From NCBI RefSeq assembly GCF_900089075.1, contig NZ_LT593747.1, positions 124,001 to 188,000 of the forward strand: 64,000 nt of DNA. Direction: 5' to 3'. The DNA comes from Vaginella massiliensis. Lineage in GTDB: Bacteria > Bacteroidota > Bacteroidia > Flavobacteriales > Weeksellaceae. The notes beneath the pieces are model-generated. The model searched no databases, was not told the origin of the DNA, and saw only the letters and a list, made by a program, of their open reading frames with translations. Position 1 is the first letter of the stretch; the number at the start of each line of letters is the position of its first letter. Both the position numbers and the translations under genes were made by a program. Shown piece after piece: positions 52,088 through 58,930 of this stretch.

Positions 52088-53320
52088 CTAATCCCGATAA
52101 ATCAAATATTTGGCTCGAATGGTTTTGAATTTTTCTAAATCTTTTTGCCAAGTCGCCTTTATCTGCTCGGCAGTCCAACCTTCTTCGATTTGTTTACGCA
52201 ATTCGTCTGTACCAGCGAGTTGATCGATCCAAAAGTGTTTGCCATTCTTGGTCCAAAAAGGTTGTTTGGTATTGTTCTGATAGGCTTTGATCAGCCAATC
52301 TAGGTTGATATAATCCAAATCGGGTGTATCTCGTAAATCTTCTCCATAACAGCGTTGATTTTTGAATTTTGGTTCAGAAGCGCCAGGTTTTGAAACGGGC
52401 GTATACTGAAACGGCATGTTTTTCAGGTGGGGAGACCCATAAACCTGAAACTGCATATCGGTTCCGCGTCCTTCGTTTACTAGAGTTCCTTCGAACAGGC
52501 AAACCGACGGATAAAGGTTGATGGATTTATCGTTCGGTAAGTTGGGAGAAGGTTTTACGGGCAAACTGTATTTTGACCGATGGGTATAATGGGCAATCGG
52601 AATGACCTCGAGGTCGAGTTTGTTTTTTACATCTAACCAGCCCTCGCCATCGATCATTTGCGCATATTCACCTATCGTCATGCCATAGACAATTGGCACC
52701 GGATGCATTCCTACAAAAGAGGTAAATTCAGGCTTCATCACCGGACCATCTACGTAGTGACCATTCGGATTCGGACGATCCAAAACGATGACTTTTTTAT
52801 TCGATTCGGCTGCCGCTTGCATTACATAATGCAACGTAGAAATATAGGTGTAAAATCTAACGCCAACATCTTGCATATCAAATAATAAAATGTCGATATC
52901 TGTTAGCTGACTTGAAGTTGGTTTTCTGTTGTTGCCGTAGAGCGAAACAATAGGCAAGCCAGTTTTGGCATCTTTAGACGAGTTGACTTTTACCCCGGCG
53001 TCTGCATCTCCCCGAAAGCCATGTTCGGGTGAGAATATTTTGATGACGTTTACCTCATTTTTCAATAAAAAATCGACCAAATGGATGGTTTCATTATTCA
53101 GTCGCAAAATACCTGTTTGGTTGGTCACCACGCCAATTTTTTTACCGATGAGTTTTGGCAAATACAAATCAAAATTTTCTGCAGCTGGTAAGATACGTTC
53201 TTTTATCGTTTGTTTTTCGACCGTAGATTTCGGTTTTCTTGTTGTTTCTTGTGCATTAATCGATGCACAACTTCCAATTAATAGTGCAATTGATGTATAT
53301 TTGACAAAAATTTTGAGCAT
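52088..53320 (-). CDS. DUF1343 / NamZ-type exo-beta-N-acetylmuramidase
   Basis: The ATG at 53320 opens into a signal peptide (MLKIFVKYTSIALLIGSC) and gives 410 residues; upstream in-frame starts would overlap the divergent gene. The DUF1343 pattern is complete: GKKIGVVTNQTG, VIKIFSPEHGFRGDADAG, LLFDMQDVGVRFYTYISTL, VLDRPNPNG and LFEGTLVNEGRGTDMQFQVYG. Characterised members (NamZ, GH171) cut terminal MurNAc from wall fragments. The signal peptide places it in the periplasm. With the NagZ fusion at 16.7 kb and AmgK-MurU at 57 kb it completes a possible MurNAc salvage route. Confidence 0.9.
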   Translation of the reverse strand: MLKIFVKYTSIALLIGSCASINAQETTRKPKSTVEKQTIKERILPAAENFDLYLPKLIGKKIGVVTNQTGILRLNNETIHLVDFLLKNEVNVIKIFSPEHGFRGDADAGVKVNSSKDAKTGLPIVSLYGNNRKPTSSQLTDIDILLFDMQDVGVRFYTYISTLHYVMQAAAESNKKVIVLDRPNPNGHYVDGPVMKPEFTSFVGMHPVPIVYGMTIGEYAQMIDGEGWLDVKNKLDLEVIPIAHYTHRSKYSLPVKPSPNLPNDKSINLYPSVCLFEGTLVNEGRGTDMQFQVYGSPHLKNMPFQYTPVSKPGASEPKFKNQRCYGEDLRDTPDLDYINLDWLIKAYQNNTKQPFWTKNGKHFWIDQLAGTDELRKQIEEGWTAEQIKATWQKDLEKFKTIRAKYLIYRD

Positions 53321-53398
53321 GTTGTTATTTTCTTTTAGAATAGCATAAGCTGATTTGGTCATCTCGTTCATAGTTTCATTGTAAAAATAGAAAACAAA

Positions 53399-54628
53399 TT
53401 GAATTTTACTTGGTGGTTTGCACAAAAAATAGCAAAAGATCGCAATAATAAGAATAATCTGGCGAAGACGATCATCACGGTAGGTCGGGTGGCAGTAGCT
53501 TTGGGCATCATCGTTTCAATGATTTCTATCTCTACTGGTGTTGGAGCTCGCAAAGCGATTAAAAGCAAACTGGCCGATTTCAACGGACATGTGACCATCA
53601 AAAATTACAACAGCAACATTTCGCTCAATTCAGATTCTCTATCCATAAAACAGGCTTTTTACCCAAACTTTACCACTGTTCCAGAGGTTGAGCACATACA
53701 AGCTGTTGCCATGCGTAGTGGCGTGATAAGAACTGCAGAAACTTTTAGTGGCGTGGTTTATAAAGGAGTTGGAACTGATTTTGATGCAAATCGATTCGAA
53801 GATTTTTTGATAAAAGGAAGGATTCCGGCTTTGAAATCGAACGAATTTTCGAATGAGGTTGTGATCTCAGAAAAAATTGCCAACGAACTCAAATTGGATG
53901 TCGACAGCTCTTTTGTGATGTATTTTGTAAAAGATGAATCCAAACCAATTTACCGCAGATTTGATGTTGTGGGATTGTATAGAACCGACATCAAAAATTT
54001 TGATGATGTTTATTTAATCGGCGACATCAAGCACGTGCAACGACTCAATGAATGGGATATTCTCACAGTAGGATCGTTTGAAGTTTTTGTAAAGGATATC
54101 GAAAAAATAGACGCCGTAGCCGATAAAATAAATGATGAAATCGGCTATAATCTCTATGCAGAGTCGGCTTCGCAATCTTTTGCACAAATCAATGATTGGA
54201 TCAATATCTTCGATAAAAATATTGTGGTCATTGTGATCATCATGTTGTTCGTGGTGGTCATCAATATGATCATGGTGCTGTTGATTTTGATTTTAGACCG
54301 TACTCCTTCGATCGGATTGTTGAAGGCTTTCGGCGCAACAAACTGGCGAATTCGTAAGTTGTTTGTAAATTATGCAATTTTGATAATGATTCCGGGGCTT
54401 ATCGCCGGGAATTTCATCAGTTTAGGATTTCTTCTTATTCAGAAATATTTCAAACTCATCAAACTTCCATCAGAAAATTATTATTTATCCTATGCACCTG
54501 TCTACTTAGATGTTAAATATATCATATTGTTAAATTTAGGAGCGATTATAATTTGTGCAATTGTGTTACTTTTGCCAACATATCTCATTGCCAAGATTTC
54601 GCCATCAAAAGCAATAAATTTTAAATAG
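53399..54628 (+). CDS. FtsX-like ABC transporter permease (LolC/E type)
   Basis: A 409-residue protein with the MacB/LolE layout: an N-terminal helix (residues 22-48, TIITVGRVAVALGIIVSMIS), a 200-residue periplasmic domain, and three C-terminal helices (ILIIFLFVVVINMIMVLLIL-like, LIMIPGLIAGNFISLGFLL, LGAIIICAIVLLLPTYL). LDRTPSIGLLKAFGATNWRI before the third helix is the FtsX core coupling motif. No ATPase gene is adjacent. It should extract or move lipoproteins or lipids at the inner membrane. The stop (TAG) is followed directly by the next ATG. Confidence 0.88.
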   Translation: MNFTWWFAQKIAKDRNNKNNLAKTIITVGRVAVALGIIVSMISISTGVGARKAIKSKLADFNGHVTIKNYNSNISLNSDSLSIKQAFYPNFTTVPEVEHIQAVAMRSGVIRTAETFSGVVYKGVGTDFDANRFEDFLIKGRIPALKSNEFSNEVVISEKIANELKLDVDSSFVMYFVKDESKPIYRRFDVVGLYRTDIKNFDDVYLIGDIKHVQRLNEWDILTVGSFEVFVKDIEKIDAVADKINDEIGYNLYAESASQSFAQINDWINIFDKNIVVIVIIMLFVVVINMIMVLLILILDRTPSIGLLKAFGATNWRIRKLFVNYAILIMIPGLIAGNFISLGFLLIQKYFKLIKLPSENYYLSYAPVYLDVKYIILLNLGAIIICAIVLLLPTYLIAKISPSKAINFK

Positions 54629-56740: not shown

Positions 56741-56770
56741 AAATCCTCTAAGTTTTCTCAGAGGATTTTT
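56741..56770. terminator. Two-way terminator between lptB and murU
   Basis: AAATCCTCT / AGAGGATTT extended with one mismatch toward loop TTTT; A- and T-runs flank it on both sides. Confidence 0.85.
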
Positions 56771-56772
56771 TT

Positions 56773-57480
56773 TTACTTAAAATATTTTTCGGCCTCCAAG
56801 ACACTTTCGGGTCGGCCGACATCTATCAGCTGATAGTCACTATGGTTGTAACCCAAAATTTGCTCGTTTTTCATCAGCTGCATATAAACTTGCATGATCG
56901 AGAATTTCCCTTCTTTTTCCATCAAATCAAAAAGTTTTGGATTGATGACGTGAATGCCACTAAAAGCGTATTCATACAAGCGGAGTTCAGTATTTGCGAT
57001 GATTTCTTCTTCCGTTTTCAGATTACGCCAACCTTGTAAACGCATGTCGTTGGTAAACAACAATTTTCTCGATGATTGTCGTTCGCTTACTGCCAAACTT
57101 ACCAATGGATGATGAGTTTGATGAAAGGCAATGAGTTTGCTCAACGGAAAATCGGTGAGGATATCGACATTCATGACCAAAAAATCGTCATCGAAATATT
57201 GTCTTACATTCAGCAATCCTCCGCCAGTTTCCAAAACTTCGGGTTCATATACAAGTTGAATGTTGATACCGAAATTTTTATTTTTATCTAAAAAATCTTC
57301 AATCTGATCGGCAAAATGATGGGTATTGATGATAATTTCGGTAACACCAGCGTTTTTCAAATATTCAATATTGCGTTGCAACAATGTTTTCTGGTTTACC
57401 AAAGCCAATGCTTTGGGATGTTTCAAGGTAAAGGGCTGCAAACGAGTGCCTAGACCAGCAGCAAATAACATAGCTTTCAT
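56773..57480 (-). CDS. murU: N-acetylmuramate-1-phosphate uridylyltransferase-like protein (MurU type)
   Basis: A 235-residue sugar-nucleotidyltransferase: MKAMLFAAGLGTRLQPFTLK (NTP-binding loop), HPKALALVNQKTLLQ, VLETGGGLLNVRQYF and VMNVDILTDFP with the metal-binding Asp. Length and pattern agree with MurU of the Pseudomonas putida salvage route, which makes UDP-MurNAc from MurNAc-1-phosphate. The symbol rests on the neighbouring AmgK-like kinase gene; RmlA- or GlmU-like specificity cannot be excluded. It is the last gene of a three-gene operon. Confidence 0.85.
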   Translation of the reverse strand: MKAMLFAAGLGTRLQPFTLKHPKALALVNQKTLLQRNIEYLKNAGVTEIIINTHHFADQIEDFLDKNKNFGINIQLVYEPEVLETGGGLLNVRQYFDDDFLVMNVDILTDFPLSKLIAFHQTHHPLVSLAVSERQSSRKLLFTNDMRLQGWRNLKTEEEIIANTELRLYEYAFSGIHVINPKLFDLMEKEGKFSIMQVYMQLMKNEQILGYNHSDYQLIDVGRPESVLEAEKYFK

Positions 57481-57495
57481 GGCGCAAAATTGTAT

Positions 57496-57921
57496 TTAAT
57501 AGGGTTGATTGATCCAGTTTTTGGCTTCCTGAACCACATGTTCTACGGTAATATTCGCTTCAGGGAATTTTGTTGCAATGTGTTTTGCAGTGGCATCAGC
57601 AGCGTAAACCGATCGGTGTTGCCCGCCTGTACAACCAAAATTGATCTCTAAATTTTCGAAATCTCGAATCAAATAATCTTCAATCGAAATATCGATGACT
57701 TGAAAAACTCCTTCCAAAAAGGTCAACATTTTAGTTTCGGTTTCTAGATAATTGATAACGTCTACATCTCGACCAGTTTGCGTCTTGTATTCGGCAATTC
57801 TACCCGGATTCAAAATGCCGCGACAGTCGAATACAAAGCCTCCGCCATTGCCAGAATGATCGGTCGGGATACCTCCCTTTTTGTATGAAAAACTTCGCAC
57901 GTTTATGTTCAGTTTAGCCAT
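57496..57921 (-). CDS. Stand-alone RapZ C-terminal domain protein
   Basis: A 141-residue protein equal to the C-terminal domain of RapZ/YvcJ: GGFVFDCRGILNPGR near residue 30, GFxxxxD region FLEGVFQVIDISIED, and INFGCTGGQHRSVYAADATA, the signature loop near residue 95. The N-terminal P-loop domain is missing altogether. In E. coli the C-terminal domain of RapZ binds GlcN6P and glmZ sRNA. Here it lies between an amino-sugar kinase gene and a nucleotidyltransferase gene (8-base overlap with the former, 15 bases to the latter). A role in sensing or handling amino-sugar phosphates is inferred. Confidence 0.88.
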   Translation of the reverse strand: MAKLNINVRSFSYKKGGIPTDHSGNGGGFVFDCRGILNPGRIAEYKTQTGRDVDVINYLETETKMLTFLEGVFQVIDISIEDYLIRDFENLEINFGCTGGQHRSVYAADATAKHIATKFPEANITVEHVVQEAKNWINQPY

Positions 57922-58930
57922 TGATTTTATGATTTATATGTTCTAATGTCCTTGGGGCAATCAACAGATTGATAATGTGTTTCAATTCGTTGTAATCATC
58001 TAAAATCGAATAGGAAGTTATGGATTTTAGATTTTCTAATCCATACGCAATACTCTCTACAAAATGTGGTTTTCGTTCGATCAAACCTCGCAAACCGTAG
58101 GCTCCCAAAACCTGTAACAATCGAGCAACAACGCAATATTGATAAGAGCGTTCAGCATCTTCGGCTTTTACGGTGGTATCGCATTTCATCACCTGATCCA
58201 AGTAATAATGGTATAATTCTTCTTTGAAATTTTGATCCAAATTTGCTTTTGCTTGCCAAATCAGCGAAACCAAATCATAGAAAATTGGACCGAATAATCC
58301 TCCTTGATAATCGATAAAATAAGGCTTTTGATCCTTAATCATGATATTTCGCGACTGAAAATCTCGAAAAACAAATCCGCTTGGCGAAAGCTGATCGAAT
58401 TGGACAGCAAACGAATCAAAATCGGCAATCATTTTGCCTTGATTGTAATTGATTTCTAAAAGATTCAAGAAATAAAACTTGAATTGAAATAAATCTCTTA
58501 AAATCAGTGTTTTATCTAATTTTGGGTACGAAAATGTTTGATGAAAATCGATCGCAGTTCGACCTTTGAGCTGAGCTTCTGCCAGCCTCGATACAATTTC
58601 GAAATAATAGGTTTTTGCTTGATTCGAATCCCGAGATAGCACATCCATCAAGCTGGTATCGCCCAAATCTGTTTGCACATAAAGACTCTGATCTTCGTTG
58701 CAAATCAAAACTTTGGGATAATTTGTGCCAACTGTATTCAAACGCTCGGTAAAATCAATGAAAACTCGATTTTCTTCTAAATTATCACTTTCTGCCAAAA
58801 TATAGGATTGATTTGCTGACCAAAATCGGTAATATTTCCTCGCCGATCCGCCACCCGATAGCAATTGAAGGGTTTCGATTGCCGTATTGGAAAAATGTTG
58901 ATTCAGAAACTGAATGATTTTAGGATTCAT
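57914..58930 (-). CDS. amgK: Anomeric MurNAc/GlcNAc kinase-like phosphotransferase (AmgK type)
   Basis: A 338-residue kinase of the APH/choline-kinase fold: glycine-rich loop LLSGGGSARKYYRF, catalytic loop GFVFRDFQSRNIMIKD (Asp as base) and metal-binding YFIDYQGGLFGPIFYDLVSL. The order and length match AmgK, which phosphorylates the anomeric carbon of MurNAc. It opens the operon amgK - rapZ(C) - murU. The His usual before RDF is Phe (FRDFQ), as in other members of this group to my knowledge. Assignment to AmgK rests on the murU neighbour. Confidence 0.85.
   Translation of the reverse strand: MNPKIIQFLNQHFSNTAIETLQLLSGGGSARKYYRFWSANQSYILAESDNLEENRVFIDFTERLNTVGTNYPKVLICNEDQSLYVQTDLGDTSLMDVLSRDSNQAKTYYFEIVSRLAEAQLKGRTAIDFHQTFSYPKLDKTLILRDLFQFKFYFLNLLEINYNQGKMIADFDSFAVQFDQLSPSGFVFRDFQSRNIMIKDQKPYFIDYQGGLFGPIFYDLVSLIWQAKANLDQNFKEELYHYYLDQVMKCDTTVKAEDAERSYQYCVVARLLQVLGAYGLRGLIERKPHFVESIAYGLENLKSITSYSILDDYNELKHIINLLIAPRTLEHINHKING

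Follow-up and report, generated by a model that had tools for sequence, protein, structure and literature searches.

The 64,000-nucleotide stretch of Vaginella massiliensis DNA analyzed here (contig NZ_LT593747.1, positions 124,001 to 188,000; the window) carries a three-gene operon, in which a protein of 141 residues lies between a kinase of the AmgK type and a nucleotidyltransferase of the MurU type. The middle protein is a stand-alone C-terminal domain (CTD) of RapZ, called RapZ_C below. We found that RapZ_C is systematically linked to AmgK in Bacteroidota and that it tracks the formation of N-acetylmuramic acid 6-phosphate (MurNAc-6P), and we suggest that it may act as a phosphatase in the salvage of N-acetylmuramic acid (MurNAc). 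A first-pass annotation had described three tightly packed minus-strand genes of these types, and all three lie where it had placed them:

57914-58930, minus strand: AmgK-like anomeric sugar kinase (APH fold), 338 amino acids, first gene of the operon
57496-57921, minus strand: stand-alone RapZ_C, putative MurNAc-6-phosphate phosphatase, 141 amino acids, middle gene
56773-57480, minus strand: MurU-like nucleotidyltransferase (uridylyltransferase), 235 amino acids, last gene of the operon
57914-57921, minus strand: overlap of the kinase stop and the RapZ_C start, 8 nt, ATGGCTAA, read from the sequence
57838-57846, minus strand: Gly26-Gly27-Gly28 of an insertion not in RapZ, from the alignment of 104 domains
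57610-57633, minus strand: Cys-X5-Arg phosphate-binding loop, C97-T-G-G-Q-H-R103-S104, from alignment and the secondary structure of the model
56741-56768, minus strand: terminator-like hairpin of 12 pairs with a T tail, directly 3' of the operon (consensus match only)

The 8-nt overlap between the kinase and RapZ_C genes would fit either gene fission or translational coupling; the gap between RapZ_C and the MurU-like gene is 15 nt. Between 56400 and 59300 there are seven terminator-like sites, compared with 2.5 (standard deviation 1.9) in shuffled sequences. The kinase and the transferase are assigned as AmgK-like and MurU-like by family, with scores below the equivalog cut-offs. The kinase matched PF01636 at 43 bits and our own AmgK profile (A3) at 403 bits; its top NCBIfam model was AmgK (NF045759, 83 bits, cut-off 550). 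The top NCBIfam model of the third protein was MurU (NF045761, 146 bits, cut-off 250), and its solved relatives are 4y7t and 8hhd. Conservation is highest in RapZ_C, with 84% identity to its counterpart in Empedobacter sedimenti as against 63% for the kinase and 64% for the transferase. A search of the window genome returned one RapZ_C and no full-length RapZ. The first-pass annotation had stated that flavobacteria lack glmY/glmZ RNAs; the search bearing on this covered 14 kb of the window and gave no Rfam match.

Linkage of RapZ_C with AmgK and MurU

Two sets of loci were compared. An even sample of 198 Bacteroidota genomes contained 24 with RapZ_C. The other set is the best 80 of at least 585 related stretches found by scanning a named collection; these 80 are the closest relatives and not an even sample. 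Together they make 104 loci, of which 103 are distinct, since one named locus (L073) is the same record as a sampled genome (G012). L073 is left out of the trees and counted among the 104.

RapZ_C is fused to AmgK in 75 of the 104 loci, lies beside it in 25 and stands apart in four, whose genomes carry AmgK elsewhere. All 24 sampled RapZ_C genomes have AmgK: RapZ_C is fused to the AmgK C-terminus in 19, the two are neighbors in four, and AmgK is on another contig in one (G180). The named loci (the best 80 of at least 585) divide into 56 fused, 21 adjacent and three apart, with AmgK elsewhere in those three genomes. The linkage is systematic and not due to chance. The first-pass annotation had envisaged a survey of gene neighbors, and in ours the domain is not randomly placed, being fused or adjacent to AmgK in 100 of 104 loci. 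An incidental linkage, that is, a chance operon neighborhood within one lineage, is hardly credible. We found nothing in its favor, and the survey of the 104 loci, with AmgK elsewhere in the genome for the remaining four, refutes it. The four unlinked loci are L072, L075, L120 and L159. In L159, from the sampled genome G180, the gene directly after RapZ_C resembles neither AmgK nor MurU; in the Epilithonimonas loci L072 and L075, RapZ_C adjoins MurU only.

The stand-alone form had been taken as the essence of the case, which does not hold, as most of the loci examined have RapZ_C fused to AmgK. The trees group most split forms, including that of the window, in a single cluster (Chryseobacterium, Empedobacter and their allies) nested among fused forms, and there are separate splits besides. 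The supports are mixed, and the kinase tree is midpoint-rooted. Given this nesting, ancestral fusion with later fission is the simplest reading, and the stand-alone RapZ_C is probably a derived form of a widespread AmgK fusion. The public annotation of the 476-residue AmgK-RapZ_C fusion is 'RNase adapter RapZ' in Parabacteroides distasonis and Bacteroides finegoldii (L177 4981-6411, L178 3984-5414). This label would hide a cell-wall enzyme behind the name of an RNA regulator, and such misnaming may be widespread.

MurU was found in 18 of the 24 sampled loci, with 1.5 kb of flank on each side, and inside the fetched DNA in 56 of the best 80 named loci; in L108 it lies 3.4 kb off on the other strand. 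Clustering of the neighbors of 99 loci gave no gene other than MurU that recurs outside close relatives (of the 19 regions newly fetched, L162 is the AnmK region). The AmgK search of the 198 genomes (E 1e-12) gave 67 with AmgK, of which 24 have RapZ_C and 43 do not. AmgK and MurU lie side by side without RapZ_C in five of five loci checked in family f16 (of 42 f16 genomes) and in genome G009. As the two genes adjoin in all six loci looked at, RapZ_C is not needed for the kinase itself.

Fold and phosphate-binding loop of RapZ_C

The window protein matched Pfam PF22740 at 100.3 bits (cut-off 27), covering model positions 2-117 of 121. Its AlphaFold2 model (predicted local distance difference test, pLDDT, 90.8) aligned to residues 159-281 of Escherichia coli RapZ (PDB ID: 5o5s) with a Z score of 19.5 and a root-mean-square deviation of 1.6 Å over 123 residues, at 30% identity. 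The 141-residue protein is therefore the C-terminal domain and nothing more. The proposal that the RapZ domain is used here without its NTPase half is borne out: that half is absent from the window protein, and full-length RapZ was found in none of the 198 sampled genomes. The basic tail of the E. coli protein is also absent, as read by eye. No haloacid dehalogenase (HAD) model matched RapZ_C in the Pfam and NCBIfam scans.

In the model, the Cys-X5-Arg loop is set between a strand (residues 90-97) and a helix (residues 103-118). By alignment, C97-R103 is the equivalent of C247-R253 in E. coli RapZ. Cys97 is present in all 104 domains, Arg103 in 103 and the full Cys-X5-Arg-Ser/Thr motif in 103. 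The E. coli pocket is formed by H190, T248, G249, H252 and R253. The window protein keeps the last four as T98, G99, H102 and R103, and G40 stands in place of H190. This position is glycine in 104 of 104 domains (NPH190 to NPG). A Gly-Gly-Gly insertion, (N/H)GGG, is likewise present in all 104, and is absent from the seven other RapZ-type proteins compared. The insertion and the change from His190 to glycine may give the lactyl group of MurNAc-6P more room in the pocket. A RapZ_C-only frame on a Streptomyces plasmid (L184, 1438-1977), for which the incomplete gene table of the record has no gene, keeps the Cys-X5-Arg loop; there the GGG insertion is absent.

The same loop of E. coli RapZ binds malonate or sulfate, according to passages of PMC5737377, and excerpts of PMC7199280 call the pocket homologous to the phosphatase loop of protein tyrosine phosphatases (PTP). 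The relevant lines of Khan & Görke liken the Cys-X5-Arg loop to cysteine-dependent phosphatases. In the portions of Islam et al. 2022 (PMC9841335) at hand, the substitutions C247A and C247S abolish RapZ activity, and a RapZ crystal with glucosamine-6-phosphate (GlcN6P) shows a likely transformed product. The idea of a phosphatase motif is thus that of earlier authors. What is added here is a family with no RNA role in sight, placed with the MurNAc pathway.

An RNA-related or structural role for RapZ_C, as a partner in the assembly, stability or RNA binding of AmgK with no ligand chemistry, is very unlikely on these observations. Parts of PMC5737377 and PMC7073468 do describe an E. coli RapZ-CTD dimer that binds the small RNA GlmY on its own. 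Against this, the invariant residues include those of the phosphate loop, the window protein does not have the basic tail, 43 of the 67 AmgK genomes have no RapZ_C, and AmgK and MurU occur together in the six RapZ_C-negative loci described above.

RapZ_C tracks MurNAc-6-phosphate formation

We compared RapZ_C with the etherase MurQ and with the MurNAc-6P-forming kinases, AnmK and MurK-like, across the 198 genomes. MurQ was counted at 250 bits or more (in G086 it is in two pieces), the remaining matches having E values of 5.5e-12 or weaker. MurK-like kinases were counted with profile A6 at E 1e-20. The model PF01869 was discarded as a MurK marker (20 genomes), being too broad and also matching CoA-dehydratase activases; A6 was used instead. 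The weaker A6 matches (76-130 bits) may include other sugar kinases, and genomes that rest on A6 alone score at least 199 bits.

The same 154 of 198 genomes are obtained whether one asks for AnmK or a MurK-like kinase, or for MurQ or RapZ_C (140 with MurQ, 24 with RapZ_C, 10 with both). RapZ_C is carried by every one of the 14 genomes that have a MurNAc-6P-forming kinase and no MurQ; eight of these, including the window genome, have AnmK. AnmK is present in 17 of the 24 RapZ_C genomes and a MurK-like kinase in all of the seven others; counted over the 24, MurK-like kinases occur in 14. MurQ is absent from 14 of the 24. Neither AnmK, a MurK-like kinase nor MurQ was found in any of the 43 AmgK genomes without RapZ_C. 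Genome G009 belongs to the same family (f15) as five genomes with RapZ_C; it has AmgK and MurU, and none of RapZ_C, MurQ and the 6-phosphate kinases. A MurK-like kinase is present in all 12 genomes with MurQ and no AnmK, a pattern that RapZ_C and MurQ thus share. RapZ_C tracks MurNAc-6P formation. AnmK was also present in 48 of 49 further RapZ_C genomes (49 of the 79 named loci without L073), which adds little because every listed genome of the class of the window has AnmK anyway.

From the gene content, linkage, motif, fold and phyletic pattern that we observed, we infer a substrate, a catalytic step and, for AmgK and MurU in this organism, enzymatic roles. We give about an even chance to the reading that RapZ_C is a MurNAc-6P phosphatase feeding AmgK, as an analogue of Pseudomonas MupP. 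AnmK, encoded elsewhere in the genome, would make MurNAc-6P, and RapZ_C would take off the 6-phosphate to give MurNAc. AmgK would then rephosphorylate MurNAc at C1, and MurU would make UDP-MurNAc. In the active site, C97 would attack the phosphate, bound by R103 and the T98-G100 backbone, and hydrolysis of the phospho-cysteine would follow. RapZ_C would thus do the work of the HAD phosphatase MupP without being related to it, and would be an alternative to MurQ. The first-pass annotation had placed possible chemistry between the kinase and the uridylyltransferase. This fits less well than a step before the kinase that turns MurNAc-6P into MurNAc, as no sampled genome has RapZ_C without also having a MurNAc-6P-forming kinase. 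The six RapZ_C-negative loci in which AmgK and MurU adjoin likewise make a role strictly between the two less likely. A NamZ-type exo-beta-N-acetylmuramidase gene (52088-53425, minus strand; PF07075 274 bits, PF20732 121 bits) lies about 3.3 kb from the operon. Its family releases MurNAc, and the predicted protein is a possible supplier of free MurNAc to the operon.

Several observations weigh against a phosphatase role. A single family, f16, supplies 42 of the 43 RapZ_C-negative AmgK genomes, and its AmgK proteins score low (73-149 bits). The pattern is uncorrected for relatedness, and the Fisher value of 1e-18 is thus not a real probability. Profile A6 was built from six of the seven genomes that it explains. 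Strong PF01869 matches occur in two of the five f16 genomes scanned; the match examined is a CoA-dehydratase activase and not a sugar kinase, and no f16 genome passes A6. A general acid can be named only at the level of candidates, which are the invariant D32 and H128 and the near-invariant D21 and D52, and one of the 104 domains carries His in place of R103. In the fold search, DUSP19 reached a Z score of 4.7, which is background level, and RapZ and phosphofructokinase (PFK) scored above PTP and dual-specificity phosphatases (DUSP). The structure search did not tie the domain convincingly to a PTP fold; Foldseek at E <0.001 returned RapZ alone.

The apparent absence of MupP must be read with care. 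The MupP model (NF009696, cut-off 359) was passed in none of the 24 RapZ_C genomes, with a best score of 101 bits (G087) and 35 bits in the window genome, which has AnmK, no MurQ and no recognizable MupP. This model is narrow: none of 14 controls passed it, Caulobacter vibrioides included, despite the predicted MupP homologue of C. crescentus (32.6% identity). (NF045760, also considered as the MupP model, is YtpR.) The HAD_2 search of the window genome gave two clear proteins and one partial, and one HAD phosphatase might do the MurNAc-6P dephosphorylation.

The weak point of the phosphatase reading is the seven AnmK-less RapZ_C genomes (L198-L204). In these, a MurNAc kinase would work against a MurNAc-6P phosphatase in a futile cycle, unless the substrate of the MurK-like enzyme is a different one. 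The link to MurNAc-6P has separate support in these genomes, however: the MurK-like kinase adjoins a major facilitator superfamily (MFS) permease in six of them and is one gene apart in the seventh (G156). Six of the permeases were scanned with Pfam and the seventh was read by likeness; in the three tested further, AmpG was the best model (172-185 bits), under its cut-off of 350. A two-domain protein is encoded near the kinase in four of the seven (G140, G116, G031, G124), and the three scanned (G140, G116, G031) combine a glycoside hydrolase family 3 (GH3) domain with a beta-lactamase fold. The MurK-like kinase, AmpG-like permease and GH3/beta-lactamase-fold protein are thus an apparent recycling operon. 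The G116 kinase, the only one tested, has the MurNAc/GlcNAc kinase 8zo3 as its nearest solved relative (GlcNAc, N-acetylglucosamine).

The main rival is a non-catalytic sensor, in which RapZ_C binds MurNAc-6P (or GlcNAc-6P or GlcN6P) and switches AmgK on or off, as RapZ does its RNA partners with GlcN6P. As a MurNAc-6P sensor of AmgK it fits the phyletic pattern almost as well as a phosphatase does, and we still consider it somewhat unlikely. RapZ_C is fused to the C-terminus of an enzyme, as is typical of allosteric domains, and its co-occurrence with MurNAc-6P-forming kinases suits a MurNAc-6P sensor too. The E. coli RapZ-CTD binds GlcN6P with a KD of 10 nM, according to sections of PMC7073468. 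However, a sensor would leave the eight genomes with AnmK and without MurQ with no known exit for MurNAc-6P, the invariant Cys is not obviously required for binding, and the H190 of the E. coli pocket is Gly in every domain. A GlcN6P sensor should moreover serve all AmgK genomes, in all of which GlmS-made GlcN6P is expected, yet 43 of 67 are without RapZ_C. The first-pass annotation had proposed that the domain senses an amino-sugar phosphate. An amino-sugar phosphate is very probably the ligand of RapZ_C; simple sensing of GlcN6P is disfavored by those 43 genomes.

A different substrate was also considered. RapZ_C could act enzymatically, as a phosphatase or otherwise, on an amino-sugar phosphate other than MurNAc-6P (GlcNAc-6P or GlcN6P), feeding the GlcNAc activity of AmgK or trimming a toxic pool. 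The AmgK models carry the name MurNAc/GlcNAc kinase, and excerpts of PMC10465942 report that Tannerella forsythia MurK phosphorylates GlcNAc too, with very low affinity and rate. The swap with MurQ points specifically to MurNAc-6P, and we judge this alternative unlikely.

If RapZ_C is the MurNAc-6P phosphatase, it fills a step without a recognized enzyme in these Bacteroidota. They would then have a defined way of converting anhydroMurNAc into UDP-MurNAc around the de novo pathway, which fosfomycin targets (passages of PMC5371407). The result would also inform the question, in print in 2020 and 2022, of the catalytic-looking RapZ cysteine, which could then be tested in a system with apparently no RNA partners. 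A broader proposal is only tentative: that the RapZ C-terminal domain is at root a Cys-dependent amino-sugar-6-phosphate phosphatase, which in Bacteroidota is the missing MurNAc-6P phosphatase and, fused to AmgK, a two-step enzyme from MurNAc-6P to MurNAc-1P, and whose pocket in E. coli was turned into a GlcN6P-timed RNA regulator. In the PMC literature searched, no paper mentions both RapZ and AmgK, none joins RapZ, GlcN6P, dephosphorylation and cysteine, and PMC7199280 is the only one found that joins RapZ, tyrosine phosphatase and glucosamine. Both the type of pathway and the domain had been described before; within the reach of these searches, the architecture and the proposed role had not.

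Comparison with known systems

RapZ_C shares with the PTP/DUSP cysteine-dependent phosphatases the succession of strand, Cys-X5-Arg-Ser loop and helix, together with an oxyanion in the E. coli RapZ loop in the parts of the literature cited above. It differs in that RapZ and PFK outrank these enzymes in the fold comparison. The E. coli RapZ CTD (5o5s) has the same fold and the same GCTGG-x-HRS phosphate pocket. The window protein differs from E. coli RapZ in being without the NTPase half and the basic tail, and in having the (N/H)GGG insertion and NPG for NPH190. RapZ_C sits here with AmgK and MurU, whereas RapZ acts with GlmY and GlmZ.

The MurK/MurQ catabolic route of T. forsythia (passages of PMC10465942 and PMC7670621) also handles MurNAc-6P, and MurK-like kinases are common to it and to 14 of the 24 RapZ_C genomes. 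Unlike that route, the 14 RapZ_C genomes without MurQ would return MurNAc intact. AmgK and MurU of T. forsythia support labeling with MurNAc probes in E. coli, according to portions of PMC13041923.

The closest parallel to the proposed role is the MupP-AmgK-MurU route of Pseudomonas, where MupP carries out the step from MurNAc-6P to MurNAc before AmgK (passages of PMC5371407). The AmgK-like and MurU-like genes are shared, and the window genome is likewise AnmK-positive and MurQ-negative. In contrast to Pseudomonas, no MupP-type HAD protein passes the cut-off here; RapZ_C, usually fused to AmgK, would take the place of MupP.

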